Source: Cladopsammia gracilis
Taxonomy: Eukaryota > Cnidaria > Anthozoa > Scleractinia > Dendrophylliidae
Length of the DNA stretch: 64,000 bases
Direction: 5' to 3'
Assembly (NCBI GenBank): GCA_022457155.1
Contig: JAJGOT010000204.1
Location: 1,007,501-1,071,500 of the forward strand
Part shown: positions 14,573-60,470 of the stretch, one piece after another
Layout of the letters: the number at the start of each line of letters is the position of its first letter
Numbering within the stretch: position 1 is the first letter of the stretch
Translations under genes and position numbers: made by a program
Notes under the pieces: model-generated
The model's database searches: none
Told to the model about the DNA's origin: nothing
The model's input: the letters and a program-made list of their open reading frames with translations, nothing else

Positions 14573-14962
14573 TTAACTTTCTTCTTCCGGCCTTTTCTTG
14601 TTTCCTTTCTTGTTGTTGTTGTTTTGTTGTTTGTTGCGTGCTTGCTCTAACCCTTTTCCGGATTGTTCTTCTCCACTCCCGGTTTGTTTTTCTTTATTTC
14701 CGGATTGCTCTCCTAGACCACTTCCTGTTTGTTCTTCTGGTCCACTTCCAGATTGATCTTCCCCGCTTCCAGACTGGTCTTCCCTGCTTCCAGATTGTTC
14801 TTCCCCGCCTCCTGAAGCAGTGCCGTTGATGCAGGGTCGTGGCAGGGGCACGGTTGGAGGCGGCACCTGTCTCCTTACCCTGAGTTTTTTGTCAATTGGC
14901 ACAGAATTCACGACAGAAACGACTCCAAATGCGAGGAGTAAAAGACTTACAAAGACGTGCAT
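14573..14962 (-). CDS. Gene A: secreted prepropeptide with PLPRP core and Gln-Ser-Gly repeats
   Basis: 129 residues. The ATG (14962-14960) directly follows TTTTCAACAG, a splice acceptor, so a non-coding 5' exon is likely. The signal peptide is MHVFVSLLLLAFGVVSVVNS. A furin-type site LRVRR is followed by QVPPPTVPLPRPCINGT, the family's proline-rich core. The rest is about seven imperfect repeats of E-D/E-Q-S/T-G-S-G ending in a Lys/Asn-rich tail and EEES. The core and signal peptide match genes B and C, but the middle SGFK...FFRC exon of those genes is absent. Function unknown; it could release a proline-rich peptide or be an extracellular matrix protein. Confidence 0.7.
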   Translation of the reverse strand: MHVFVSLLLLAFGVVSVVNSVPIDKKLRVRRQVPPPTVPLPRPCINGTASGGGEEQSGSREDQSGSGEDQSGSGPEEQTGSGLGEQSGNKEKQTGSGEEQSGKGLEQARNKQQNNNNKKGNKKRPEEES

Positions 14963-15002
14963 CTGTTGAAAAGATGAGGCCAAAGAATGAAGTTTAAGTC
15001 TT

Positions 15003-15052
15003 GTTTGGCATGGTTAGTATACGTGGATGGGTGACCGCCCAGAAACCATATG
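15003..15052 (+). pseudogene. 5S rRNA-derived fragment
   Basis: GGCATGGTTAGTATACGTGG followed by ATGGGTGACCGCCCAGAAACC closely follows the 3' half of animal 5S rRNA (GGTTAGTAC-TGGATGGGTGACCGCC). The 5' half is missing, so this is a pseudogene or a relic of a 5S-derived SINE. It lies just upstream of gene A on the opposite strand. Confidence 0.6.
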
Positions 15053-20265: not shown

Positions 20266-20632
20266 GGGGCAGCGTGGTCGAGTGGTTAGGGTCGAGTGGT
20301 TAGGGCGTCGAGTGGTTAGGGCGTCGAGTGGGCGTTAGGGCGTCGAGTGGTTAGGGTCGAGTGGTTAGGGCGTCGGACTTATAATCCGGAGGTCCCGGGT
20401 TCAAGTCCCGCTCTGACCACTTACTGGAGTTGTTTCACGGCAGACCTGAGTTCAACTCCTCGGCCTCGCTTGTAAAATAGCCAACTGGTTTGCCTCCTGC
20501 CAGTTGGGATTTTTCACGTGTTATGTTCTATTTGCGATATTTGTTTCTTTATTTAGTGTCCCCAATTAGTGCTTGCGCGCTAAATACCTTGACACTTAAA
20601 TAAAGTGATTATTATTATTATTATTATTATTA
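20266..20632 (+). mobile_element. tRNA-headed SINE with amplified A-box region
   Basis: The head GGGCAGCGTGGTCGAGTGG ... GGACTTATAATCCGGAGGTC, CCGGGTTCAAGTCCCGC is tRNA-like, with A box TGGTCGAGTGG and B box GGTTCAAGTCC. The word GTCGAGTGGTTAGGG(C) is repeated about six times in tandem where a tRNA has one. The body follows, ending TAAATAAAGTGATTATTATT, an (ATT)n tail. Confidence 0.8.
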
Positions 20633-42466: not shown

Positions 42467-42485
42467 TAAAAACGACAGCTAAACG

Positions 42486-45400
42486 ATGTTGAAGCTTGAT
42501 CCACCGGAAAAGCTCGACTTTTCAAAGCCGCAAGAGTGGCCAAACTGGAAGCAGCGTTTCGATCGCTTTAGATGTGCGACGAAGCTAAACAAAGAAGACG
42601 AGGAACTTCAAATCAATGCTCTGATCTATACAATGGGCAAGGAGGCAGAACACATATTTAACGCATTTACGTTCGCAGAAGGTGATGAGAAGAAATACGA
42701 CGTGGTGTTAGGCAAATTCGAGGAACATTTCGTGCCAAAGCGAAATATTATCCACGAGCGAGCATGTTTTCATCGACGAGTGCAGAAGGATGGAGAAACT
42801 GTTGAAGCCTTTATTCGAAACCTCTACGAACTAGCGGAACATTGTGAATTTGGTCTACAGAGGGACGAACAAATTCGAGACAGGATAGTGATTGGAATTT
42901 TGGACAAATCACTCTCGCAAAAGCTGCAGATGAAATCCGATCTGAACCTTGACACGGCTATACAAATGGCGCGTCAATCAGAGCAGGTAAAAGTTCAAGT
43001 CGCAGACCAAGTAGACAACAAACACCTTGGAGAAGTAAATCGAAAGAATTGGAGGCCGAACGCAAATAGAAGACAAGGTCCTACTCAGCGTGGCAGGAAT
43101 TTTAGGCGACCTGGAGCTCCTTCGATTCAGCTATGTTCTAGATGCAACCGTGCTCATAAGCCTGACGAGACATGCCCGGCGACAGGAGCCAAATGTTCTA
43201 AATGCAAGAAAAAGGGACATTTTGCTGTAGTTTGCCGTTCGAAGGTGGGAGAGGTAACACATACTCCCCAAGAAACTAGCCAGCATTTCTTTCTTGGAGC
43301 TATTAAATCGGGTGACAGTGGCGAAGAACCATGGAGCGTCATGTTACACATCAACAAGAAGCCTGTGCAGTTCAAAATTGACACTGGAGCTGATATCTCC
43401 GTGATGTCAGAGTCAACATATCAAGCTCTTCCACAGTGCCCTGAGCTTAAACCTTCGACTGCGATCTTATCCAGCCCAGGAGGAAAGCTTAACTGTAAAG
43501 GCCAGTTTACTGCTAACATCGCTTTAAATAAGAACACTTACAGTCAAGATATTTACGTAATCGAAGGTCCATGTGTAAACAATCTTCTTAGTCGACAAGC
43601 AGCATGTCGGATGGGTTTAGTCCAACGCGTCAATGAAACCACCGCAGATGTTTACGGAGACATTGGTCTCATGGACTGTGATGTAGCAAAAATTGAGTTA
43701 TCAGATGATGCACAGCCTTATTGTATTAATGCAGCGAGGAAAATTCCCTTTCCACTTCTTCCCAAAGTAAAAGAGGAACTTACACGCATGCTTGAAGCTG
43801 GAATTATTGAAGAAGTCACAGAACCGACGGATTGGTGTGCTCCTATGGTTCCAGTTGTGAAACCCAATGGCAAAATCAGAATTTGCGTTGACCTGAGGAA
43901 GCTAAATGAAGCTGTCAAGCGAGAGAGATACATTCTCCCTACCTTGGAAGATGTAGCCCCAAAATTAGCTGGAGCAAAAGTATTCTCTAAGTTAGATGCA
44001 TCAAGTGGTTATTGGCAGATACCCTTGCACCCTGACAGCACAAGGCTCACAACGTTCATAACTCCAATGGGTCGCTTCTGTTTCCGCCGCCTGCCATTTG
44101 GGATAACCTCAGCACCTGAAATATTTCAGCACAGAATGACAAGTCTACTTAAAGACCAAGAAGGCACAGCAGCTATTCAAGATGATATCATAGTCTATGG
44201 GAGAAGTGTAGCAGAACATGACAAGAGACTGCAGGAAGTATTCGAGACCATTGCCAAGTCAGGTCTGAAGCTCAATGAAAAGAAATGTGAAATCCGCAAG
44301 CCCAAAATCTGCTACTTTGGAAGTGTTATCAGTGAGCAAGGAGTCAGCCCAGATCCAGATAAAGTAAGAGCAATTCAGGAACTTCCACCACCACAGAATG
44401 TATCCCAATTGCGACAAGTGCTGGGCATGATCAATTACCTTGGCAGGTTCCTTCCAAATTTATCAACAGTGATAAGTCCAATGAGTGAGTTGCTGAAATT
44501 AGATACTGCCTGGACTTGGTCCCATAGGCAACAACAACAAGCCTTTGAGAAAGTTAAGGCCATGGTGACCACGACACCAGTATTAGACTTCTATGATGTC
44601 AACAAACCTACCGTAGTCAGCGCAGATGCCAGCAGCTACGGCTTAGGTGGTGTCCTTCTTCAGAAACACGGTGATCAACTACGCCCTGTAGCATTTGCCT
44701 CACGCACGATGACAGATGCTGAAAGAAGATATGCACAAATTGAAAAGGAATGCTTGGCATCAGTGTGGGCCTGTGAAAAGTTCTCGCGCTATCTTTGTGG
44801 TCTGGAGTCATTCAGGTTGTTGACGGATCACAAGCCACTCGTACCCCTGTTCAACCGCCAAGACCTGGATAAAGTACCTTTACGATGCCAACGTCTTCTC
44901 ATGCGTATGATGAGATTCAAACCTAAGGCAGAACACGTGCCAGGAAAGGAACTCGTTGTTGCTGATACCCTCTCCAGAAACCCGCTTGTAAATGTCGCGG
45001 AGGCATCAGACTCAGAAGATGATGTCAAAGCTTACGTTGATGCAGCTGAGATGTCACAACCAGTATCACTTGAGAAACTGGAGCAGATCAAGCAAGCTAC
45101 ACTGTCTGACCCACAGCTCAGTCTTGTACTGAATTACACAATTAATGGATGGCCAAAGTATGCAAAGGATGTTCCAGAACAGGTTCGTCAGTACTACACA
45201 GTTCGTGGTGACTTGTCTGTAGTAAATGGCAAAATCATCTATTGCAACCGAATTGTTGTACCTCCAGCTCTACGTTCAGAAGTCTTGGACCGTATCCATG
45301 ATGGTCACCAGGGCGTGGCTAAGTCCCGTGAAAGAGCCAACATGGCTGTGTGGTGGCCAGGCATTAGCCATGACATTCAAAACAAAGTGTCCACATGCAC

Positions 45401-45536
45401 ATTCTGCCAAGAGAATCTACCCAGCCAGAGGAAAGAGCCATTAGTCACTACACCACTCCCTAACAGAGCATGGAAGAAGATTGGTGCAGATCTCTGTGAA
45501 CACAAAGGAAAACAGTTTCTAGTCGTTACCGCCGAC
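42486..45536 (+). CDS. gag-pol polyprotein, 5' 1017 codons (to SINE)
   Basis: A single frame from ATG. Gag capsid-like region about residues 1-190. Two zinc knuckles about 220-255 (the second CSKCKKKGHFAVVC). Aspartic protease about 290-390 with KIDTGADISVMS. Reverse transcriptase about 440-620 with GYWQIPLHP, RLPFGITSAPE and catalytic IQDDIIVYG. RNase H about 705-830 with VVSADASSYGLGG and LTDHKPL. Integrase zinc domain with H-x3-H region near HDGHQGV and C-x2-C in CTFC; then the catalytic core begins with GADLC before the SINE. Gag and pol are fused with no frameshift, as in many chromovirus-like and Mag-like elements. Confidence 0.95.
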
Positions 45537-45596
45537 CGGTAGCTCAGTAGGTAGAGCGCCGGACTGCTGTGCGGGAGGTCTCGGGTTCGAGCCCCA

Positions 45597-45637
<41 letters not shown>

Positions 45638-45928
45638 CATGCTGCCTTTGCAATGTTATCCGCAAATGGTTAGATGTTCTAGTCTTCTCGGATAAGGACG
45701 AAAAATCGTAGGCCCCGTCTCCTGCATCTTCAATGTTATATGCTTAGCAGGGGACGTTAAAGAACCCACACACTTGTCGTAAAGAGCAGGGCACGGAGTT
45801 CCCGGTGTAGTGGTCTGGCCTTGTTTCACGGGTTGGTGCTTCACATAGGGTTAACCTCATTGCACCTTTCCCCGCTTGGACAGATTTGTCCAAAGAAAAA
45901 ATGAGTATGAGTATGAGTATGAGTTATT
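45534..45928 (+). mobile_element. tRNA-derived SINE inserted in integrase
   Basis: The head GACCGGTAGCTCAGTAGGTA ... GGGTTCGAGCCCCAGACCGG has A box TAGCTCAGTAGG and B box GGTTCGAGCCC and ends ACCA, that is, a nearly intact tRNA-like fold. A roughly 300-bp body follows, with a tail of GAGTAT units (about 45902-45924). Only GAC is clearly shared at both junctions. It introduces a stop right after VVTAD. Confidence 0.88.
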
Positions 45929-46834
45929 GACTATTACTCAAGATTTCCCGAAATTGCCTATATGTCCAGTACCACAAGTGATCATGTGATCAACAAACTG
46001 AAAGACATTTTTGCCCGATGGGGAATACCCGAGGAAGTTGTTAGTGATAATGGACCTCAATTTTCTTCAGAACTGTTCTGCAAATTCAGCCAAGAGTATG
46101 ACTTCAAACATACCACAACAAGCCCTTATCACCCGCAAGCAAATGGTGAAGCCGAAAGTGGTGTCCGTATTGCCAAGAAGATCCTTAAGCAGAGTGATCC
46201 ATTTGTTGCTTTGATGAGCTATAGAGCTACACCCCACACAGCCACTGGTGTAAGCCCTAGTCAGTTGATGATGGGAAGAGAAATTCGGACTCTCCTTCCT
46301 ACGTTGGAGTCTAACCTGAAGCCACTCTCAGTAAGCTATGAAGCCGTTGCTGAAAGAGATGAGAAAAGCAAGACAGCCTATCGACAGTCCTTTGACAAAA
46401 GACATGGTGTGCGAACGCTATCAGAACTACAACCCGGAGATGCTGTCCACATGAAGCTAGATCAGCAGAAGGGATGGAAAACCCCTGGGGTAGTCATCGC
46501 CAAAAGTTCTACACCTAGATCTTATGTTATCAAAACACCGCAAAGCATTGTGCGTCGAAACAGGAGACACTTGCGCCCGACGACAAGCCCTATTGATGTT
46601 GAGAAGTTTGAAGAACTAGAACCAGATATAGAACCAGAACAGGATCTTAGTCCAACTGCTGATGTGCAAGAGTTACCTCCAACTGCGACTCAGTGCAAAG
46701 TGCCACTAGTTAGACAGCCACACCCTGATCCGATGAGTCCTCTTAAAACTGTCACTAAGTCGTCTGGGGCAGAAGTCAGAACCTCGAGCGGTCGAGTTGT
46801 GAGGAAACCAATCCGCTTTCGAGAGGACATTTGA
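45929..46834 (+). pseudogene. gag-pol polyprotein, 3' part (integrase core and C-terminus)
   Basis: The frame resumes with DYYSRFPEIAYMSS, then VVSDNGPQFSS (second catalytic Asp) and HPQANGEAESG (catalytic Glu), followed by the C-terminal domain with PGDAVHMKLD and a Pro-rich end, and a stop at 46832-46834. Separated from its 5' part by the SINE, it has no own promoter. Confidence 0.9.
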
Positions 46835-47194: not shown

Positions 47195-47256
47195 TTACTG
47201 TTGTTTTTCTGGTAAAAATGCAGCTCCTTTAGTAATTCCAATTGAGTTACTTTTAC
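47195..47256 (-). CDS. Gene G terminal exon
   Basis: Acceptor TTCGTTTCAG; encodes KSNSIGITKGAAFLPEKQQ and TAA. The LTR element begins 62 bases further on. Confidence 0.8.
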
Positions 47257-49115
47257 CTGAAACGAAATGAAAAAAACCGTTTCTTCGTAATATGGACATT
47301 TTTGTAAATATTTTTTAATTTTCACATCAAAATCTAAAAATACATACCGTATACATTTTCAAACGTTTGTTCGTAATTAGCTTCTGCTTTTTCAACTTTC
47401 ATTGCTTCTCCCAATGTTTGAGGAACATTTAGGCCTGTTAAACATGCATAATACATGATTATTATATTACACCGTACCGTAAAACTCGGGTTGGACTACG
47501 GAAGTCAGGGGTCGGTTTTATGAAGCTCTCCTAAGTTAACTTGATATATCCTAAGTCATATATCCTAAGTCGTATTGTCGGAATTACAATGAAAATGTAA
47601 TGCTGTTACTTTCACCTTTATTAGAATAACTCGCTAGCTCCTGTTCTTCTGCGTTGCCTAACTTATTAAAGGCCTCCGAGAAGGATTGGGCTGTTGATAA
47701 ATGGAAAAGGAAGCGTTTTTACCAGTAAAAAAAATTCGGCACGTGATAAAATCAAACGGTAAAAGCACGTTTCCATATTAAATCGGTTCTAGTTTCAGTA
47801 TTTTCAATCCCCATGCAATCCACCGTAGGAAAAAAGATGGCGGCTGTTCATTTTACCACAATACCTTGCGGACCTAACACAGCACATAGTGCACAAAAAA
47901 AGCCAAATTTTTACAATATTTGTTTCAGTACTGAGGACAATGTGTAGACCAGGTTTGAAGATTTTATAACTTTTCTTTACATTTTTATGAATGTTGTTAA
48001 GGTTTTTGTGCGCTACGAATTATGGGTAAATGTACTAGTCGCCATCTTTTTTCCTACTGAGGATTACTTCAAGTGCAATAGATTAACCCCTTGGCTATTT
48101 TTTTTTCTAAGTCAAGTGCATGGCAGAACATGTATGTCTTACATGAAAAATTGGAAAACTCCCGCGAAAACATTTATATGACGGCCGTGTCTATATCAAC
48201 CGTTAGTCAAGTCTTATTGATTTTGAAAGCTATATAATCTATCGATATAAATTGGGCTAGTTTGTACTAAACAAATCCCATCAATCAGCGTGAATTTTGC
48301 GAAACTCGCCTAGTCTTGCACAGCCTATGCACTAAAGCGGCGGCCTGTGGGGTGACAAACTGCTAACTTAATTGAGGACAGGTTCCTTTGTGGGAGCCTG
48401 ATAGGGTGTCCGACTGAGCAATTGGCACGCCAAGTGAACAGAGCGATGACTGGGAGGAGGAAGGGCAGTAAGTAGATTAACCGTTTTCAGCCTGGGCTTT
48501 TTTTGAGTTTCTGAGCCTGGGAGGGCACATTGTGCCCCCCTTCGTAACTTCAAGAACATTAAGGCTATGACAATGAAACCTAGAAGGTACATAGTACGTC
48601 CAAAACTGTCTCCTTTGCGGTCCGCACAATGGAGCGATGACGTCATATGACGTAGTTATTAGGTAATTAGTTATACAGCCGCAATCTTGGATCCGCCATC
48701 TTGGATTTCTGAAATTTTTTAAAACCTCTTAAAAACCGTCCAAATTCACTCAGAAGTAATCAAAACCAATAAATAAACGCTAAATGACGTAAAAATATAA
48801 AAGTTATACCAATAAACATTGTTTTTCTTCATTCAAAGGTATAAATATGCAAATTTTAAAAAAACATGGCTGTCAAAATTTTGTTGCCATGGAAACATCA
48901 ATCACGTGATCAAAAAATTGTCATATCAAATTGTTATTTTCATATTTTTACACAGTTTCATAAACGATTAGCCGACGTTCTCACCGACACCTTGTTCGTC
49001 TGCATTTCCAGCGAATCTGGCTAATTGAGTTATGTCTATAAAAAAGCAAAGAAAGTAATCAAAACAAATGTAAGTCTCCTGATAAACCTATTCTGTGTTA
49101 CAGGATCATTATTAA

Positions 49116-49155
<40 letters not shown>

Positions 49156-52100
49156 GTCGTCGTCGTCGTCATCGTCATCGCCATCATCTATATCACTACC
49201 ATAACCATCCTGGTCCTCGCTACAGTCATCAGCAATACATCGTGGTCGTAATACCACCCTTTCAATCATCATCATCATTATCATCATCATCTTTATTATT
49301 ACCATCATTACATCATCATCGTCATCATCATCGCCATTGTCATCATTACCACCACCATCATCAAGGTCCTTACCTTCATCATCATTATCATCGTCATCAC
49401 CATCACTTTCGTGGTCCTTACAACCCTCATCATCAATACCATCTTACTCGTCATACCCCCTTTTCATCATCATTGACCATCCGTAATACTTTTTGTTAAC
49501 TTTAAGAAGTAAACTTTTAGTTTGTTACTCTTACGACTGTCACCCAGTCAGGAAATAAAGTTGCTTATTATTTACAAACAGATTCAGCAATATTAGGTCT
49601 GCAGGCTTCCTCGATACATAAATAATTCATCATAGCAATTGTAATTTATCCCAGATATCGCCTTCTGAATGCCTACCCGGATCTTTAAGAGGACTTGTGT
49701 AACTTCCTAAAACCAAAAATAAAATGAAAAACAATTCTGTTTTCGATCGACATAATGTACAGTACTTGCTATGATTTCCTGGCGTAATATCATTCTATAT
49801 ATCTTGCGCTTTAAGACAACGGAGCCATATTTTAAACATTTCAAACACTTAGCACCCATTTGAGAGGAACCGGAAGCTTTGAAATAATCGTTGAAACATT
49901 CTGCTAGTAACACATGTGTACAACTCAGTGCGGATTGATGACATTTAAATTGGATTGCTCCTGTATGAACTCTTTACTGCCATTGTTTTGTTCATTAAAA
50001 TTTGTTATTCCATAATCCTTTCCAGTATCGTTTGGAAATCTACCTTAATTATTACCATTTTACTTTAATTATTAATTAAAAGGAGGTTTTCTGAGGGTTT
50101 AAAAGTATTTAAATTGCCGTGAAAGGAACACTTAACTGAGCCGATACTTGGACAATCAAATAATAGCTAATGATACGTAATATCATTTTGCGGTTTACCT
50201 TGCGAGAAGTCTTGTCCCAGAGGGGCTGGGTTGGTTACATAACTTGCGTCTACAATAGGAGGTTAAATGAACCAATCAGTTATGACTTAGAATCCGGCCC
50301 AGATAAATAAACGCCAAAAGATAGGGCAAACAAAAAACTGTGAGTGGATTTTTTAATGGATAAATCTTAAGCTTGTAAGGAATTGAAGCAGCAGAAACTG
50401 TATTCGGCTCGACTGAGTTATTTGATTCTACATGCTGAATTTGTCTGCTGAGCTGCAACACTCAGGAGTCCTGTTGTAATGATTTTACGAAAACCTCTCT
50501 TTGCGAGTCCAGTGAATCATTTCATCCTATACAGAGTAGAATGTGTGTAGACGTCCGACGTATCGGGACGTTTGTGCGCAAGAAAATTCAATTGGACTGT
50601 AAAATGGTCCGTTTCCGTTTTCTGAGAAAGTAAACTGCTAAATAATACCCGGGTATAATACTGTATAACAACCACGTAGAATGCACGATTACTGCAACTA
50701 AGTTTAACAGTATTAGAGCGGGTTTAAATTGAGTGTCGTGAAACCAAAACCAAAGTAATTACTCTGACCAATCACAGAACTCGCAGACAATCCGATGAAC
50801 CAATCAGAACTCGAAGCAAATACATGCAGCGGGCACCAAGCGCGGGAAAACGCGTGCGAGCAAATCACGATTGGTTTTGGTTTTACTTCCGATTGGTTGA
50901 GAAAATGGCCAAAAACAAACGAAACAGCAAACTGATCCTTACGAACATAAAAACAGAAACAAAAGCAAACAAAAAAAAAATAAAGGTGAAATATAGTAAT
51001 GTGTCTCTGATTTTATACCGTGCCAGGATCAGTTTTCCGTATAGTTTATCAGAATACTATACACGATCTCCAAACCCAAAGTGATTTAAAATGCAGTGAC
51101 TACTTAAATAACCTGAGGCTGCCAGTGGAAGCTGATTGCCATGCTGAGGTAGTGGATTGTTAACAGGTTGACGTGAATATGGCGTCATATCTAAAACGAT
51201 TAAACTGATGTCAACATATAATATATATTGATCCTAAATTTAATATTTTCTTGCCATATTTTCAGTAGCCGAAGATGTGCAGCTGTGCAGCTTTCTGGAC
51301 ACAATTTATTTTTTTACATAAAAAAACAAATCCGGAGTTTCATTTAACGAAAACATTAAAATTATCTCTTGATGATTTATTCGCATACATGTATTATACT
51401 GACAATGGGACTATTCACTGTCATTTGCCATTTTCTATCTGAAATCTTTAATTTTACTTTCAGGACACTCTGCTTTGGTATGCAACCTTATATTCAGTAA
51501 GTTTCTTAGAAAAATATGCATTTCTTACAGTCTCGCATGTAGCTCATATTTAACATGAGGTAATTAAACTATTAATTTCACGATTAAGTTCTGAGTTTCT
51601 TGGATTAATCTTTAACTATACTCAATCTTACCGACACCGCTAGGGAACTGAGGCATGTTGTCTAATCCAGTTGAGGAGAAATACCTTTGCATATCTAACA
51701 AATTATAGAGAAAAAATGTTTGCACATATTAAGTTTTTTCAGTAGAGACTGTCACCTTTTATCAGAGTGGAAAATAACTTATCAAAATAGCTAAAGGAAA
51801 ACATTTCTAGCACAGACTAGATCACCCAACCCCTCCCCCCTCCTTCCCTCCCCAATGAGAAGTCTTATGGTAGTTTCTTGGTGTTGCGGATGGTGTGATC
51901 ACCAAACGACGTAAAACAAAAGATTCAAAAGACACTGAACAATACCCACACCACAACACAAAAGCTAACCAACAATGGCTTCCGCAACACCAAGAAACAC
52001 CCAGTCTTATGGTTCGTTCCTTACTACTTATCATAGTCAAATCCTTTGATCATCAAACAATTGTTGCAGGGGCATACCCAGCCATTCTGAAAAGTGGAGG

Positions 52101-55100
52101 TTTTATCTCGTCCGAAATCAGTCACTCAAGACAGTTCAGTTACACAGACATTCAAACGCATGTATATGTCATGTTCAGGAATGAAGAGTCAATACGTAAA
52201 ATAGCAACAACTTCCCATTTCTCGTTTTCGCATTGAAATAGTCTGTTCCGGCTTTCTAGATTATTTTTGTACGGATTCTGTTCTCAATTCTTCGGGCGAC
52301 CCCGTAGCTGTCCAAACGATGTCTGTGATTGGCGAACGATACAATTGATATATCACTTGAACAATGCCCCTATCCCTAATCCCTATCCCAGCGGGACAAA
52401 TCTATTGTTTTCTTAGCGAATCACAGACATCGTTTGCACAAGAGACAATTCTTCATTTTTTCTCGAAAAGGGGCGTTACGGAACTACTGGAACACTTCCC
52501 AGGTTACTCCCCTGTGTTGCAACAGTACTGGTCACCTACCGCTTCCTTCCTCAGCATTTTTAGGTATAGGGTTGTCCATCGCGGCAGGTGGGACAATGCT
52601 AACTGCATAACATAAAAGTAAAAAGGGACGTATTTTAAATTTGCGAAGATGTAAATTAGTCGCAAACAAAACTGAATAAGATATCGGAATTGTCAAATGA
52701 CAGAATTCAAATTTTGTTGAATGGAAAAATGTTTGTAACTTACCAAAATTAGATGGAACTTCTTTCTCGTCATGTTGATCACTAAGAAATTGAGCGTTTC
52801 CTTTAAAAAGATATATATAATGCATCGTAATTAATTTTATAAAGTTTAACAATTACTCTTCTACGTATACAGATATTTAAAAATTGACAACAGCTACAAC
52901 AACCCTCTGTAAGTATACATTACAAAGTTACTAGTTAATTTCAAAATAAAAGAGGCTTGGCCTTAAAAAATCTTATTTCGCCTAGTACTTTTGTTACCTT
53001 CTTTTTCTGCGTTATTTTTCAAAAGTTCCGTTGTATCAGACACTGTTTGCAACAAAGAGTCTGGAAAGAGAAAGAAAACACGAAAAAGTTTTTCTCTTAC
53101 GCTTTTTACGCGAGTGACGACGATAGATCGTTGATCATCTAAGGCTACGTTCACACGGTACCGGACAAATTTTCGACCGGTTAAAAAATTTGACCGGACA
53201 TTTTGTTCACACGGAACTGACTAACCGGTTGAAGTTTAACCTTTGTCAGTGGTTTTACCATCTGCCCATGCGCAGAGCGCTACTTTACCAAATCCAAAAT
53301 GGCGTCTCGAAAGAGAAAGGCCAACAATGGTAGCGATAACGGTAAAGATTCGACACCTGATAGCGACAAAGATTTTACTTGGACGGAAGAAGAAACGTCC
53401 CTACTGCTCCATGTTGCTTCATCATATAAAACCGACAAAACGACTGAGGGAAAAAAATATTAATAGGACTCCAACACACCGTTGCCTCCGTACGTGGAAA
53501 GCTCCGCATATCATAGCTATTTGCAAGATGATATTTTGCATTGATACTGTAATATTAGCGAGCAAAGCGATTAATAACCCAAAACATTCCATCTTCATAG
53601 TCTATACTTTCTTTCTCTCTTCTTCTAGCTGAGTTACCACGCATCCATGCAACCACGCCTTTGCCGTACAAAAATTTAGACGGTCAAGGTGTTCACACCG
53701 CGCCGGTTAAATTATTGACCATAGCGGCTAAAACTCCGTCCCCGATTTTGGCGTTCAAATTTTTGAGCCGTTAGATGTCTAAATTTTCGTACGGTTAGCG
53801 TGGTTCTGTGTGAACGGAACACCTCAGTAACCGCACGAAATTTCAACCGGTCGAACATTCGTCCGGTACCGTGCCAACGTAGCCAAAATCTCCTGTGTAA
53901 ATCTATTATTTAACAATTTTAATAACATCATGATAGCTTAACATATTCGAACAACAATATGTATGTAATCAAAATAGGTGATTTTCTAAGTTAGGAGACT
54001 GTATGTTATCAAAACAACACGGTATCTCCTTTCTAAGACTTCGCTTTCAAAACTTATAGTCAAAAAGAGAATGTTTCCAGTAGAGTTTTCGAAGGAGTTT
54101 TCAGTAATACCTTCAGAGGCTGGAAGAATTCCCTCGTCACTGACATCATTGTCGACAGTTTCAATAGTGTTGTCATGTTTCACTGCAAGAATGTTTAGTC
54201 CACTTAATACTTTATAATAATAATAACTGGTTTATACTTTCTGGAGATAAAATGTCACAAAGAAAGGTCTAGAAGCTAAAAGACCAGAAGAAGGCTTCCT
54301 AGAAGGTTTGTTTCTATTTTTATCAGAACCTGGAACATATATGAAAATAGTTGAAAATAGCTCTTAAGATATGTTTAAGTCTAAACTTTTAAATTGTATA
54401 TTAATTGATTATAATTTGCTATAATTTGTTATAATTTATTTAAAAAGTAGAATGAAACTTAAATTAAATTTAAGCATTTGTGACACAGTAATGTAAAATC
54501 AAATCATAAATAGAACAACATCGTACTTGGACTGAGCCCTTCCGGTTTCGATGTGTGATACACACTTACGACGTAAGCATGAAAGAGAGGCCTGAGGGCC
54601 ACCAAACTTACCGCAAACTTCAAAAAAAGTAAATATGGCAGCGGAAACAAGAGCGATTTGTGATTTAGAGATTAAAAATTAACCCCAGAAGATATTCCTG
54701 GAGCAGATACAGTAAACGAAAGTCAGTTGAAAAGTGGACGGCGGAAAAACTAACCTTCGGTAAGGATCCTTCGGAAATGCGTGAAACGTCAAGTCTTTCC
54801 TATTATCGGAACGATTATTACAAAGCGCAGCGACGCAACATTTGTCAGAGGATTTTTATCGTATAGTTATAGGCTGCACTTCTGCCTTTTTAATTGCGAT
54901 GTGGCCCTTAGGCCTCGCTTTCATGCTTACGTCGTAAGTGTGTATCATCAAAAGTGTCTGTTTTTTTTTGCCAAAGAAAAAGAGAGTTTAAAAAATAAGA
55001 GAGGTGAATGGAAATGAATGTATCTACTAGCTTTTGACCGTATCTACATGTATCTACTTTCATCTTTTATCCATTGTATTATTTATTAATATAATTAATA

Positions 55101-55272
55101 TTATTATTATAAAGATGATATTTTCTTCACACTTACTACTGTTCTCTGATGATTGACGTTGATGACGTTTCATTTTATTCTCAACAAAAGCAGGAGCTGT
55201 CGATACAGCAAAACAAATTAAGCAAACAAGAGAAATGGAACTTGACAGAATGATAAAACTAAAGATACACAT
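47195..55272 (-). CDS. Gene G: secreted acidic protein from many symmetric phase-1 micro-exons
   Basis: Ten exons give 214 residues. Exon 1 encodes the signal peptide (MCIFSFIILSSSISLVCLIC, cleavage likely after FAVST) and a short basic stretch KMKRHQRQ. Internal exons: 54182-54111, 53060-52998, 52800-52744, 51661-51632, 50225-50199, 49020-48985, 47690-47616, 47434-47348, of 72, 63, 57, 30, 27, 36, 75 and 87 nt. All are divisible by three and all begin and end in phase 1, so any can be skipped without a frameshift. The terminal exon 47256-47195 ends EKQQ-stop. The mature protein is acidic and low in Cys, with no known domain. The layout (signal-peptide exon, then symmetric micro-exons) is that of schistosome micro-exon genes, where it yields variable secreted proteins; homology is not claimed. 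Two DNA transposons sit in its introns. Confidence 0.8.
47348..47434 (-). CDS. Gene G exon 9, 87 nt
   Basis: Acceptor TTTAACAG, donor GTATGT. Encodes LNVPQTLGEAMKVEKAEANY and EQTFENVY. Confidence 0.8.
47616..47690 (-). CDS. Gene G exon 8, 75 nt
   Basis: Acceptor TTATCAACAG, donor GTGAAA. Encodes AQSFSEAFNKLGNAEEQELA and SYSNK. Confidence 0.8.
47815..48066. mobile_element. MITE family 3, copy b
   Basis: GCAATCCACCGTAGGAAAAA...CATCTTTTTTCCTACTGAGGATT; an inverted copy of 39858-40107. In a gene G intron. Confidence 0.8.
48985..49020 (-). CDS. Gene G exon 7, 36-nt micro-exon
   Basis: Acceptor CTCAATTAG, donor GTGAGA. Encodes ARFAGNADEQGV. Confidence 0.7.
49107..49470. repeat. (CAT)n / (ATC)n microsatellite in a gene G intron
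   Basis: A long run of CAT units with CGT and interspersed ACC variants. On gene G's strand one frame reads a run of more than 20 Asp residues (about 49107-49190). Confidence 0.9.
50199..50225 (-). CDS. Gene G exon 6, 27-nt micro-exon
   Basis: Acceptor AACCCAG, donor GTAAAC. Encodes APLGQDFSQ. Confidence 0.68.
50713..50912. mobile_element. MITE family 1, copy e, truncated
   Basis: AGAGCGGGTTTAAATTGAGTGTCG...CAATCAGAACTCGAAGCAAA...GATTGGTTGAGAAAATGGCC, then similarity stops. Confidence 0.7.
51632..51661 (-). CDS. Gene G exon 5, 30-nt micro-exon
   Basis: Acceptor TCTCCTCAACTGGATTAG, donor GTAAGA. Encodes DNMPQFPSGV. Confidence 0.68.
51871..52002. mobile_element. Short inverted-repeat element with 10-bp direct flanks
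   Basis: GTTTCTTGGTGTTGCGGA and TCCGCAACACCAAGAAAC are perfect inverses, flanked by AGTCTTATGG at 51861-51870 and 52003-52012. Confidence 0.7.
52078..52086 (-). CDS. Candidate 9-nt micro-exon of gene G
   Basis: CTCCACTTTTCAG / AATGGCTGG / GTATGC, phase 1-1. Similar candidates: 50660-50649 (12 nt, acceptor TTATACAG) and 49682-49677 (6 nt). Chance occurrence cannot be excluded for such short exons. Confidence 0.2.
52314..52435. repeat. Inverted repeat AAACGATGTCTGTGATT
   Basis: 17-bp perfect arms at 52314-52330 and 52419-52435; probably a MITE core. Confidence 0.6.
52744..52800 (-). CDS. Gene G exon 4, 57 nt
   Basis: Acceptor CTTTTTAAAG, donor GTAAGT. Encodes NAQFLSDQHDEKEVPSNF. Confidence 0.78.
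52998..53060 (-). CDS. Gene G exon 3, 63 nt
   Basis: Acceptor CTCTTTCCAG, donor GTAACA. Encodes DSLLQTVSDTTELLKNNAEK. Confidence 0.78.
53143..53884 (+). mobile_element. Harbinger-like DNA transposon (742 bp) in a gene G intron
   Basis: The ends GGCTACGTTCACACGGTACC and GGTACCGTGCCAACGTAGCC are inverse repeats with two mismatches and inner ACCGGT words. The left flank is TAA and the right AAA, close to the TWA target of PIF/Harbinger. It contains a short Myb-like ORF and no transposase. Confidence 0.7.
53299..53463 (+). pseudogene. Myb/SANT-like ORF fragment of Harbinger-like element
   Basis: 54 codons beginning MASRKRKANNGSDNGKDS, then DKDFTWTEEETSLLLHVASS. W-T-x-E-E-x-x-x-L-L is the first helix of the Myb/SANT-like domain carried by Harbinger elements. 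It ends early at TAA, so only the first helix remains. Confidence 0.55.
54111..54182 (-). CDS. Gene G exon 2, 72 nt
   Basis: Acceptor TTGCAG, donor GAAG/GTATTA. Encodes KHDNTIETVDNDVSDEGIL and PASE. Confidence 0.75.
54285..54329 (-). CDS. Candidate extra micro-exon of gene G (45 nt)
   Basis: Acceptor ATATGTTCCAG is good, donor G/GTCTTT is weak. Phase 1-1 and divisible by three; encodes SDKNRNKPSRKPSS. It could be an alternative exon. Confidence 0.35.
54550..54949. mobile_element. TIR transposon remnant (GATGTGTGATACACACTTAC ends), SAP-like fragment
   Basis: GATACACACTTACGACGTAAG, CATGAAAG and AGGCCT at the left are mirrored at the right (CTTACGTCGTAAGTGTGTATC). Inside, a broken frame reads IPGADTVNESQLKKWTAEKL, resembling the SAP-type DNA-binding module seen in some transposon proteins (weak). 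Lies between gene G exons 1 and 2. Confidence 0.6.
55137..55272 (-). CDS. Gene G exon 1 (signal peptide)
   Basis: 45 codons plus one base; ATG at 55272; donor GTAAGTG. The hydrophobic run is followed by APAFVENKMKRHQRQSSENS. Confidence 0.72.
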
Positions 55273-55299: not shown

Positions 55300-57220
55300 T
55301 CTGAAGACTCAATATATAAAATATCCTAGGTATGTCCTATGTATCTCTATGTATCTTTACTGTGCTTAATTAATTCCAGTATTGTAAAGACGAAAATGGC
55401 GCGGTATAAAGTTATTACTATTAATGAATTATTAAAACTAGAATAAGAAGAAGCCAACTAGAGTAAGTGCTAATTGGCGTTCATCGTCCAGGAATGTAGT
55501 GACAAGCCAAGTTGAACGTCTCGAGTGAGAAGCCACGCAGTGAAGACCATCCCTCTCTGCTCAAGTCTGCAGTTTCCATGTCCTTCCCGCTATCCCTTCT
55601 GAATATTGGACTTTACTGTCCTCCAAGCCCATAGGTGGAAACACATCATGTGCTCAACGCGTTAGTCGACGAAAGACTTAATATATGATTTCTAAAAGAA
55701 TATCAACCACACAAAGTTGGGTGAAATTTGTGTTTCTTTTTCCTGTAAGTTGGCCTAAATAACGCAGCTGGGATTTTTGCAGGAATTCACAGTGGTCGAC
55801 AGTTTGTCGGCATGGAAAAGAGTGGAGACATTCATTTAGTGACAAAATAAGATAATAAGACCATTTCCAGACAAGACATACCAATAAACAGCTCTTTGTT
55901 ACTGCGAAAAAAGTTCTTCTTCGCTGCATGTTCTTGAGAGAAAACGAAAGAGCTTTACTATAACAAGTACGTACGTATATAAACACCGTCATATAAACAC
56001 CCCTCTCCATTTAACGCCAGTCTGTAAAATTCAGTGAAATTATAAAGTTCAGTACAGTTACATTTTATTTAACGTCTCCTTTCTATGGAAAATAAACTCC
56101 CTATCACGATTACACGCCTCTCTTGAATAAAATAAAATGCCCCTTCTAACGGATCAAATTTAATAAATCCCGCAGACATTTTATTCTCTTTATTTGAGCC
56201 CGACGGTAACATAGTTCAGCATGGAGCCGGCCTAATCTGCGCACAGAAATCTCATTTTTCTTTTTTTTGTCGAGAATGCGCCGTAGCGCAGACGTCCCTT
56301 ATCCGAAAAAAAGTAAATAGCAGACGTCTACGCAAAGGCTAGTGAAATGAAACTGAATGTAAGTGTAATTTTTATGAGAGTGCTGAGAAGAGTAAAACCC
56401 TTACAAATCCCTCTAGGGTGCACGCCCTTGAACAGTCCTTCAAAAACTCATTAATAATTCATGAGCATATCAGCCAATTACACGACGCAAATCGATCACG
56501 TGTATGAGCCTTTATACCTGGTAATCTACGGTCATTATGAAAAGCCTGGTGGCGGCTTTGATTTCAGTCACAGGGGAGTTCGGGGCTGAATGGGCAAACA
56601 ATGTAATTATCGCTGAATTTTTAATGAGAATGATTTTAAAATGACCGTGATATTTATATTAAGATCACACGTAATCTTTATATAAAGATTACTGATATGG
56701 GTAGTAATTGTTTAGGATTCTTAGTACAACAAATGGTGACTTTAATATTTTTGTGCAGTACTGTTTTACGAAATCTGGTCTTTCGCCATTCTATTTGGAA
56801 TTTTCTCGACAAAATAAACAACCAACAGTTTAACAAGTGAGCCGTTATTTGAATGACACCAGCGCCCTCGTGTAAATTGCCAGGTAAGCGACTGGTTCGC
56901 AGATGCAAGCTGCTTATTTCTACTCGTACTCTACCTCTGAAAAAAAAATTGTCAGCCGTTTTATCTACCGTACCTGACAACTTTAGTATAGCATTTTTCA
57001 GTAGATGTTTTCCCTCGAACTATAAAATCCCAAAACTTTCGACAGGAGCCGGGAAGCAATGGTCACTTCGTCGAAGACGTGGCACATGTGTTGTATGCTA
57101 ATCAGTCTAGTCTACTTGTTTTTCTCGTATGCTAATTTCCTCTTTGCACAAAAGCGCAATTGTTTTAATTCCGAAGGGAGACGCTTTTGAAAGAATGTTT
57201 TTGAAGCCGTTCAAAAAACT
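55300..57220. other. Intergenic stretch upstream of gene G
   Basis: No convincing exon. Expected to hold the gene G promoter on the - strand; none recognised. Confidence 0.35.
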
Positions 57221-58323: not shown

Positions 58324-58444
58324 CAGTAGAAACACAATCTTCAATGTACGTTGCCAAGTTCCCTTCCCTGTCTTCAAAAAGCATCGCTTCTCTGGGCCTG
58401 CGAAAAAGCGTAGCACTATCAAAATCTGTTGTCTGGGATTCAAC
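58324..58444 (-). CDS. Orphan exon candidate
   Basis: Acceptor TTTTGATTTATAG, donor ACTG/GTAAAT. The best frame (phase 0 to 1) reads VESQTTDFDSATLFRRPREA, MLFEDREGNLATYIEDCVST. It does not join in phase to gene E exon 2, so its gene is unknown. Confidence 0.3.
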
Positions 58445-58898: not shown

Positions 58899-59077
58899 TT
58901 ACAGATGGAACCTTTTCTTCGCTCTAATAAACTTGTGCAACACGTCTTTCCTGTATTTCACGTGAATGCGTCTCTTGAGGGCGTCGGAAGTTTCCTTTTT
59001 CATATGCAAGTTACGGTTCACTATAAATTTCACTTGACGACACTTAAAACCTGCAGGGTCATGGTTATGGTAATGAT
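58899..59077 (-). CDS. Gene E exon 2 (basic C-terminus)
   Basis: 58 codons plus TAA; one Cys; starts with further His residues, which supports joining to exon 1. Confidence 0.65.
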
Positions 59078-60470
59078 CTATAAGAAAACAACGAAACCTG
59101 TCAGCAATTAAAACTGTAAACTGTAAGCCTCTTTAAATACTAAGAGAACAATTTTAATCAAAGTAAATGATTGCTGGTTTTAAAACAGCATCTATGCCTA
59201 CTAGACGTTGGACAAAATAATGTTTTTTGTCAGTACCGCGCAATTTCCATCAAACACAAGACACGTTTTGAATTGAATACCTCTCTAGTCTCCTACGCAA
59301 TGTTGACCGTTATTGGGGTCGCACGCAAAGTCACTTTTCCCCACTTAAAGTGCCCCTATGATCAAATTTTTCATTTTCATTTTTTTTACATTTTCGTATA
59401 CAATTAGACTTTCTTACTCATCTTGCCAAATTTCAATCCATTACGAACATCAGAAGTCATTTTATTTTAACACTTATTTCCGAGAATTTACGGCCGCCAT
59501 TAATCAACCTTGTTCCAAGGCTTGGTTGCGAATGGGCCGGAGAAAGTGACGTCAAAGACTCAAACATACCTCACGGGTTGAAATTATAATAACGATAAGT
59601 ATTGAAAACCACACGAAAAGCAACAAAAACTTTGAACTTGTTCTTCGTGCAATTTTCGATGAAAACCAAAAATTTGATCATAGGGGCACTTTAATACCGT
59701 TCATACCAGCAGCGAATTCAGAGCTGCTAATAGGGTTACGTTGCCCAGGGCACCAACAAGGAGGGGACCCAAAGAATGTTTGGCCCTTCTGGCGTTACAA
59801 ATGCTTTACAAATAAGAAGTAGCAGCTGGCCTTCTCAGGCCCCTAACCTGAATTTGTTACTGCCTCTGAGTAAAATCAGAAACCCATTATTCTTTATCAA
59901 CGGGTTTCCTCCCTTTACTCGATCCTTTGTAATTTAAAAGTAACTAGTATATAGATGCCATTTTTCTATAACATTTAATTAACAGTACTGATACGTCAGG
60001 TCTTTTTAAACAACCGATATAATAACTTTAGGAAGTTTAACACATATAACAATCATTGGATCTTAATTTTAAAGTTTGCTATAATTTAAACAGTTACATG
60101 GATATAACACAATGCAGGTCACACTTGACACTGAATAAACGAATAAAAGGCAAATAACGCTTAAGTTGTAATTTCCTTCTAACTACACATTCCACCAACC
60201 TTTGAAATGTAAGTGACGATGTAAGTGACCTACATGTAAGCGACTTTCATGTAAGTGACCATGTAAGTTACCATGTAAGTGACCATGGTGGTGCGCCACC
60301 TTTTTGTGGCTCCTCTGGTGAATCAAGTGCTTTTCATTAAAAAAGTAGTGTACATGCTTGTGGTGAGATTCCTTTTGTTTGTTTCTTGTTTCGTGAATGT
60401 GTTTACCATCAACAACGCTTATGACTAAAACAAGGGAAACAAAGACGCTAACCGTGTGATAGCACCTCAT
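58899..60470 (-). CDS. Gene E: secreted histidine-rich protein with basic C-terminus
   Basis: Two exons, 149 residues. Exon 1 (60470-60200) encodes the signal peptide MRCYHTVSVFVSLVLVISVV and a region where about one residue in three is His, with a repeating G-H-L-H pattern (HHHGHLHGNLHGHLHESRLH). The donor AAAG/GTTGGT is phase 1. Exon 2 (59077-58899) follows TTTTCTTATAG and continues HYHNHDPAGFKC, then a Lys/Arg-rich helix-like stretch ending AKKRFHL-stop. The stop overlaps a perfect donor (CT/GTAAGT), so a third exon cannot be excluded. Without splicing, exon 1 would stop 5 codons after the donor (GWWNV), a possible isoform. Such His content suggests binding of Zn, Cu or Ni, pH-dependent behaviour or antimicrobial action; none is shown. 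The intron carries a MITE. Confidence 0.75.
59349..59690. mobile_element. MITE AGTGCCCCTATGATCAAATTTT with TTAA flanks, in gene E intron
   Basis: AGTGCCCCTATGATCAAATT and AATTTGATCATAGGGGCACT are inverse ends flanked by TTAA at 59345-59348 and 59691-59694. Confidence 0.8.
60200..60470 (-). CDS. Gene E exon 1 (signal peptide, His-rich repeats)
   Basis: 90 codons plus one base. The DNA shows matching ATGTAAGTGAC repeats on the + strand, so the HLH repeats arose by short tandem duplication. Confidence 0.78.

Follow-up and report, generated by a model that had tools for sequence, protein, structure and literature searches.

Does the minus strand of a 64 kb stretch of the stony coral Cladopsammia gracilis (contig JAJGOT010000204.1, positions 1,007,501–1,071,500; hereafter the window) carry a gene built from many very small exons, and could the skipping of such exons yield variant secreted proteins? 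The question was raised by an initial annotation, which proposed ten exons between 47195 and 55272 and likened them to the micro-exon genes (MEGs) of schistosomes. The minus strand was read and phase-compatible exons were chained into a 295-residue model, after which related proteins were mapped onto the region. The resulting model, guided by these relatives, consisted of 17 exons and 16 introns coding for 460 residues over 60470–47195 (a locus of approximately 13 kb), with a reading frame unbroken across all 17 exons. The strand, the stop at 47195 and the good splice sites of the initial annotation were retained, while its exon count, extent and start had to be replaced. We consider it probable that the gene encodes a secreted two-part coral protein, in which a constant basic head is followed by an acidic tail of 13 skippable and duplicable phase-1 exons and a terminal exon, the tail varying by both routes.

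Exon anatomy and homologues

The 295-residue model was searched against approximately 5.8 billion sequences (729 candidates) and matched five clusters with E values of 3e-80 to 4e-29. A profile of these five clusters and the window protein revealed nine clusters (P0001–P0009; E up to 1), and a wider profile returned the same nine (E up to 10), with no flatworm or insect protein among them; the search depends on shared 5-residue words, and could therefore overlook more divergent homologues in other corals. Every named relative was a stony coral, in agreement with the cnidarian origin first proposed. The five genera were represented by Oculina patagonica (LOC144635587 isoform X1), Desmophyllum pertusum (OS493_024778), Orbicella faveolata (LOC110057747 isoform X2), Pocillopora damicornis (LOC113681702 and pdam_00010678), and Stylophora pistillata (LOC111326669 isoform X1), and the four of the five named species that were checked all belong to the suborder Vacatina. 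The clusters P0001, P0004 and P0008 carried no species name; their contigs (1467 nt with 427 codons, 1340 nt with 398 codons and 1508 nt with 428 codons, respectively) are too short for introns and are therefore probably cDNA. In a midpoint-rooted tree, the window protein clustered with P0001 and P0004. This is a real gene family of corals, unnamed in every record examined, and no paper on this gene was found by locus identifier or by topic in the open-licence literature.

The genome (877.8 Mb in 1469 contigs) was searched for a second copy. With P0001 as the query, all eight matches were to this locus (22 candidates scored); with P0002, seven of eight were to this locus and the eighth had an E value of 6.58 and two stops (10 candidates scored). 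With so few candidates scored (22 and 10), strongly diverged copies may have escaped both searches. As part of the account preferred here, it is probable that the gene is restricted to stony corals and present, as far as searched, in a single copy.

Mapping of the first five relatives gave matches well beyond 47195–55272 and revealed four upstream exons, E1–E4 (60470–55882), which the initial annotation had missed and which hold the predicted true signal peptide. The N-terminus MRCYHTVSVFVSLVLVISVVDG matched the start of all nine relatives in the alignment. Where eight internal exons of 27–87 nt had been described, the interval contained 11 whole internal exons (E6–E16) together with E5 and the last exon, the sizes being 30–87 nt. 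The start ATG and signal peptide formerly assigned to 55272 lie within an intron. The piece 55272–55197, considered as a start exon, was rejected as a T-rich intron end; the relatives run from E4 (55932–55882) straight into E5 (55196–55137), so that the exon begins at 55196, and the real signal peptide is placed 5.2 kb upstream. This illustrates a general trap, in which a pyrimidine-rich intron end, when translated into Phe, Leu, Ile, Cys and Ser, mimics a signal peptide. The coordinates are collected in Table 1.

Table 1. Exons and other features of the coral gene; coordinates are those of the window.
Feature	Coordinates	Strand	Description
E1	60200..60470	-	271 nt; start codon, putative signal peptide (~60470-60405) and a basic stretch rich in His; phase-1 end; aligns with the N-terminus in 9/9 relatives
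E2	58903..59077	-	175 nt; basic module KCRQVKFIVNRN... with the first conserved Cys; phase-2 end; seen in relatives
E3	58324..58397	-	74 nt; LFEDREGNLATYIEDCV, with the second conserved Cys; phase-1 end; 15-19 identities over 24 residues to the 9 relatives
E4	55882..55932	-	51 nt, phase 1-1; absent from the initial annotation; seen in relatives
E5	55137..55196	-	60 nt, phase 1-1; missing in P0009
E6	54111..54182	-	72 nt, phase 1-1; seen in relatives
E7	52998..53060	-	63 nt, phase 1-1; seen in relatives
E8	52744..52800	-	57 nt, phase 1-1; missing in P0005 (Orbicella isoform X2)
E9	52540..52602	-	63 nt, phase 1-1; seen in relatives
E10	51632..51694	-	63 nt, phase 1-1; seen in relatives
E11	51113..51190	-	78 nt, phase 1-1; missing in P0001, present in P0004, two copies in P0005
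E12	50199..50249	-	51 nt, phase 1-1; inserts on either side in relatives
E13	49677..49706	-	30 nt, phase 1-1; the sole exon of 30 nt or less; seen in relatives
E14	48985..49035	-	51 nt, phase 1-1; weakly conserved except in P0001 and P0004
E15	47616..47690	-	75 nt, phase 1-1; seen in relatives
E16	47348..47434	-	87 nt, phase 1-1; conservation among the highest, with 18-26 identities to the 7 relatives extending this far
E17	47195..47256	-	62 nt up to the stop; last coding exon
AATAAA	47118..47123	-	possible polyadenylation signal, ~70 nt past the stop
Not an exon	55197..55272	-	'signal peptide' of the initial annotation; pyrimidine-rich intron end before E5

Two details of the head exons may be added. 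A 12-nt tandem repeat at 60207–60287, within coding E1, gives a His-Leu-Gly-rich stretch, and 23 residues here are absent in all nine relatives; this appears to be coding repeat growth in the lineage of the window's coral. A possible alternative donor lies within E2, 9 nt before its end (58903–58912, minus strand), and fits a GT in AAAAGGTTCC of the window. At this place P0007, P0008 and P0009 read KS(S/A/P)RE or KSPRK, and P0006 reads KRFHLPRK.

Intron phase and the background of splice-like pieces

Analysis of intron phase revealed that 15 of the 16 introns are in phase 1: intron 1 is in phase 1, intron 2 in phase 2, and introns 3–16 are all in phase 1. Each of the 13 exons E4–E16 is a multiple of three and phase 1-1, with its own acceptor and donor, which confirms what the initial annotation stated of its internal exons. 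All 8192 inclusion patterns of E4–E16 remain open. The symmetric exons measure 30–87 nt, most commonly 51 and 63 nt; one of the 13 is 30 nt or shorter and four are 51 nt or shorter.

The chance that such a chain arises from open splice-like pieces was evaluated by scanning the region with consensus splice-site frequencies; as the weakest model site defined the cut-offs, the scan is partly circular. The model acceptors ranked at the 84th–99.9th percentile and the donors at the 92nd–99.6th among all AG and GT of the region. On the gene strand, 20 open candidates of 27–90 nt were found in phase 1, compared to seven each in phase 0 and phase 2; the model exons account for 13 of the 20, and the remaining seven equal the background level. 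The plus strand gave nine in phase 1, with three and eight in phases 0 and 2, and the reversed sequence gave five, with four and two, respectively. At a stricter cut-off of 4 bits for each site, no candidate passed anywhere, the model exons being among those that failed.

Candidates of 6–15 nt on the gene strand numbered four in phase 1, four in phase 0 and three in phase 2, while the controls in phases 0, 1 and 2 gave 1, 1 and 1 on the plus strand and 0, 2 and 2 in the reversed sequence. The model exons stand out and the tiny exons do not. The extra micro-exons of 6, 9 and 12 nt that had been suggested gain nothing from their phase, since candidates of this size are no commoner in phase 1 than in the others. 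A proposed 45-nt exon at 54329–54285 was likewise dropped: its donor is poor by eye, and none of the nine relatives has a counterpart.

A chance chain or a dead gene is the least plausible of the readings weighed here, and the homologues already refute it. The discarded start exon at 55272 was such a chance piece, and there is a background of seven candidates of 27–90 nt per phase on this strand. However, nine protein clusters, including contigs of transcript size, align exon by exon, and the frame is intact over 17 exons. This independent alignment of nine homologous clusters is the decisive support for the exons.

A two-part protein and the variation of its tail

The head (E1–E3 after the signal) of the window protein comprised 151 residues with an isoelectric point (pI) of 10.2, 29 His and 2 Cys, the relatives having a pI of 10.4–11.7. 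The tail (E4–E17) comprised 287 residues with a pI of 4.65 and no Cys, compared to a pI of 4.2–5.0 in the relatives, where tail Cys occurred only in the divergent end of P0005. A hydrophobic N-terminus was present in all ten proteins, which supports the earlier prediction of secretion as probable, with the start moved to E1. Charge-hydropathy analysis placed all ten heads and tails on the disordered side, the tails by small margins. An AlphaFold model of the Oculina member, made from 9 sequences, had a mean predicted local distance difference test score (pLDDT) of 36.4, and the weak strands and helices of its head were too low in confidence for a fold search. Pfam gave no family for the 460-residue model at E 0.1 and only two matches for the 295-residue model, both below their cut-offs; across the ten proteins four sporadic families appeared, each in one protein. 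No solved structure fitted (best E 0.77). A neuropeptide precursor was also considered and set aside, as no repeated peptide units were seen by eye.

Comparison of the relatives exon by exon revealed the highest conservation in E3, E7 and E16 and the lowest in E5 and E14. Within the tail, all internal gaps and inserts of 10 residues or more, relative to the window, lay 0.3 residue from a predicted exon boundary. Whole exons were missing in three relatives (E5 in P0009, E8 in P0005 and E11 in P0001). Inserts after E11 measured 12 residues in P0006, P0007, P0008 and P0009, 24 in P0005 and 44 in P0003, and those after E12 measured 15 residues in P0002 and P0005 and 14 in P0003. Length differences in the head fell outside this boundary rule; they lay in the His-rich part of E1, where P0001 and P0004 have 15 extra residues. 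The two Pocillopora damicornis records, P0006 and P0009, were equal at 414 of 416 shared positions and differed by exactly E5, and at the E4/E6 join of P0009 Ile is replaced by Val, the split codon that the window exons predict when E5 is skipped (E4 ends in G).

Duplication was also evident. P0005 contained two adjacent copies of E11 that share 25 identical residues (score 133, compared to at most 49 in 30 shuffles), and P0003 contained a duplicated 27-residue stretch (113 against 45). An internal duplication in the window's own tail was rejected, the best self-match being 38 against a null maximum of 49, and four query peptides representing the relatives' extra exons after E11 and E12 gave E11 itself as the sole clear match in window positions 51640–49700. 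Among the 91 exon pairs of the window gene, two (7/14 and 5/9) had scores reached by 0 of 200 shuffles, and self-matches were seen in P0004 (E4–E5 against E6–E7, 46 compared to a null maximum of 43) and P0001 (43 compared to 44); the null cuts were coarser than the observed ones in both tests, which were left unused.

As E4–E16 share one phase, any of them can drop out or double without a frameshift, so that tail length and motif content can vary. The modularity of the exons is therefore plain, and the exon-exact differences among relatives (E5, E8 or E11 missing, E11 doubled) agree with the proposal that skipping creates protein variants, while splicing variants as such are unproven. According to the preferred account, the head would comprise a signal peptide, a His- and Lys-rich basic stretch and a conserved Cys pair and stay constant, while the acidic, probably disordered tail coded by E4–E16 and the terminal exon would vary by exon duplication and loss in evolution and, at least in some corals, by alternative splicing too. 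Such splicing, presumably regulated, is likely in some corals but unproven, above all in the window's species. The names isoform X1 and X2 show that three of the genes (Oculina, Stylophora and Orbicella) were annotated with several forms. The product would most likely be a protein of the extracellular matrix, mucus or skeletal matrix, whose head may bind polyanions, metal or mineral while the tail may serve as an adjustable spacer; the matrix role is the weakest step.

Several observations weigh against this account. P0004 and P0005 terminate early, away from any boundary, the end of P0005 (GKDFKII...) possibly being a translation into the intron past a phase-1 donor. Indels of fewer than 10 residues occur inside tail exons (E5 and E12), such as 9 extra residues in E5 of P0006, and the aligner has some freedom in placing gaps. 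P0001 and P0004 are equal at only 350 of 370 shared positions, and the difference in E11 may therefore be one of species instead of splice form. P0009, a model from a genome project, could be a misprediction. The low confidence of an AlphaFold model made from 9 sequences is weak evidence of disorder, and two skeletal-proteome papers (PMC9532382 and PMC8086859, in part) discuss disordered coral skeletal proteins without naming this one.

Some of these observations suit a simpler reading, that the same gene is constitutively spliced, its phase-1 run being a relic of tandem exon duplication and of the bias of secreted proteins toward phase 1, and the differences between corals reflecting gene evolution or annotation noise. 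The exon duplications of P0003 and P0005 and the clade-specific inserts after E11 and E12 show that genomic change is sufficient for a varying tail, P0001 and P0004 may represent two species (350/370), and an excess of phase 1-1 is general in extracellular modules, as outlined in part of PMC8001218. However, E8 is precisely what the Orbicella isoform X2 is missing, the records from Oculina and Stylophora bear the name isoform X1, and two models of one species (P0006 and P0009) differ by exactly E5; we consider constitutive splicing unlikely to be the whole explanation.

At the other extreme, the gene could be a true combinatorial generator of diversity resembling schistosome MEGs, with many tail isoforms being made purposefully, perhaps in gland cells or stinging cells, or directed at symbionts or microbes. 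All 13 cassettes are freely skippable with 8192 open combinations, and three different exons are missing in three relatives. Only single skips were seen, though, the exons are not tiny (30–87 nt), and the good conservation of E3, E7 and E16 does not suggest free shuffling. Such a purpose is, in our judgement, rather doubtful. Equally tentative is the idea of an independent cnidarian diversifier of secreted proteins driven by splicing, in which a constant His-rich basic head would carry 13 freely skippable phase-1 cassettes, giving as many as 8192 in-frame tails whose use would depend on tissue or symbiosis.

Comparable systems and the surrounding window

The MEG 2.1 product has been described as disordered, and very small symmetrical exons permit MEGs to produce variant proteins (PMC4350168, in part). 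The 35 MEGs of Schistosoma mansoni have exons of 6–81 bp, the majority of 15 bp, according to the relevant part of PMC10526429. With MEGs as described in these sources, the coral gene shares many short exons, mostly multiples of three, between long introns, whose skipping keeps the frame; MEG products are secreted, as the coral product probably is. The coral exons, however, are 30–87 nt long and one copy was found as far as searched, compared to a 15 bp majority and 35 genes, and the tiny exons lacked support; by exon size and gene number, the schistosome-type classification therefore fails. Aphid bicycle genes have approximately 17 exons on average, with small internal exons nearly all in one phase (2), and form a fast-evolving family of salivary secreted proteins (PMC9168663, in part). 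The coral gene shares the serial small exons in one phase and, probably, the secreted product, but differs in its phase (1) and in the single copy found. It resembles MEGs and bicycle genes in design and belongs to neither.

Extracellular animal domains that spread by shuffling are as a rule symmetric phase 1-1 modules, the classical signature of exon shuffling, and this layout suits frame-preserving skipping, as stated in part of PMC8001218. The coral gene resembles these class 1-1 modules (Patthy) in its symmetric phase-1 exons (13/13, E4–E16), its probably extracellular protein and frame-safe duplication and skipping; unlike those known folded domains, its pieces are 10–29 residues long and contain no Pfam domain. 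Given bicycle genes and phase 1-1 modules, as those two sources present them, the statement that no counterpart is known outside flatworms was too strong as regards design. Human ameloblastin, one of the vertebrate SCPP enamel proteins, is secreted and disordered, and the beginning of its exon 6 supplies 15 residues by which isoforms differ (PMC7730623, in part). Coral acid-rich and uncharacterized skeletal matrix proteins share the coral host, an acidic region and, probably, secretion and disorder, as far as PMC8086859 describes them, but the head of the present protein is strongly basic and His-rich. No SCPP protein was among the nine matches. Introns of SCPP genes are in phase 0.

With this gene, stony corals would join flatworms, aphids and vertebrates as bearers of lineage-restricted secreted proteins coded by serial short exons of the same phase, here phase 1. 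It offers a compact case (~13 kb, one copy found) in which to ask directly if splice diversity is the reason that such cassettes persist, or if they merely follow from exon duplication and phase bias.

Two introns of the gene contain repeats. Intron 6 holds a 742-bp element (53143–53884) resembling a miniature inverted-repeat transposable element, with 44-nt inverted ends that are 89% complementary. Intron 11 holds a repeat of approximately 200 bp (50710–50910) with 42 other matches listed at 88–98% identity; as only 40 of 3519 candidates were scored, many more copies are likely. Downstream, a retroelement on the plus strand (42483–46834) carries reverse transcriptase, RNase H and an integrase zinc-binding domain in one open piece and the integrase core in a second, the frame being broken between 45542 and 45923. 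Two plus-strand tRNA-family matches, at 45533–45606 (33 bits) between these two open pieces and at 20349–20419 (41 bits) overlapping a 16-nt tandem repeat, may be short repeats derived from tRNAs instead of tRNA genes. An open frame on the minus strand at 14573–15013 gave no Pfam match above the cut-off; its start resembles a signal peptide (MHVFVSLLLLAFGVVSVVNS), repeats of the EEQSGSGE type come next, and it may code for a second secreted low-complexity protein.

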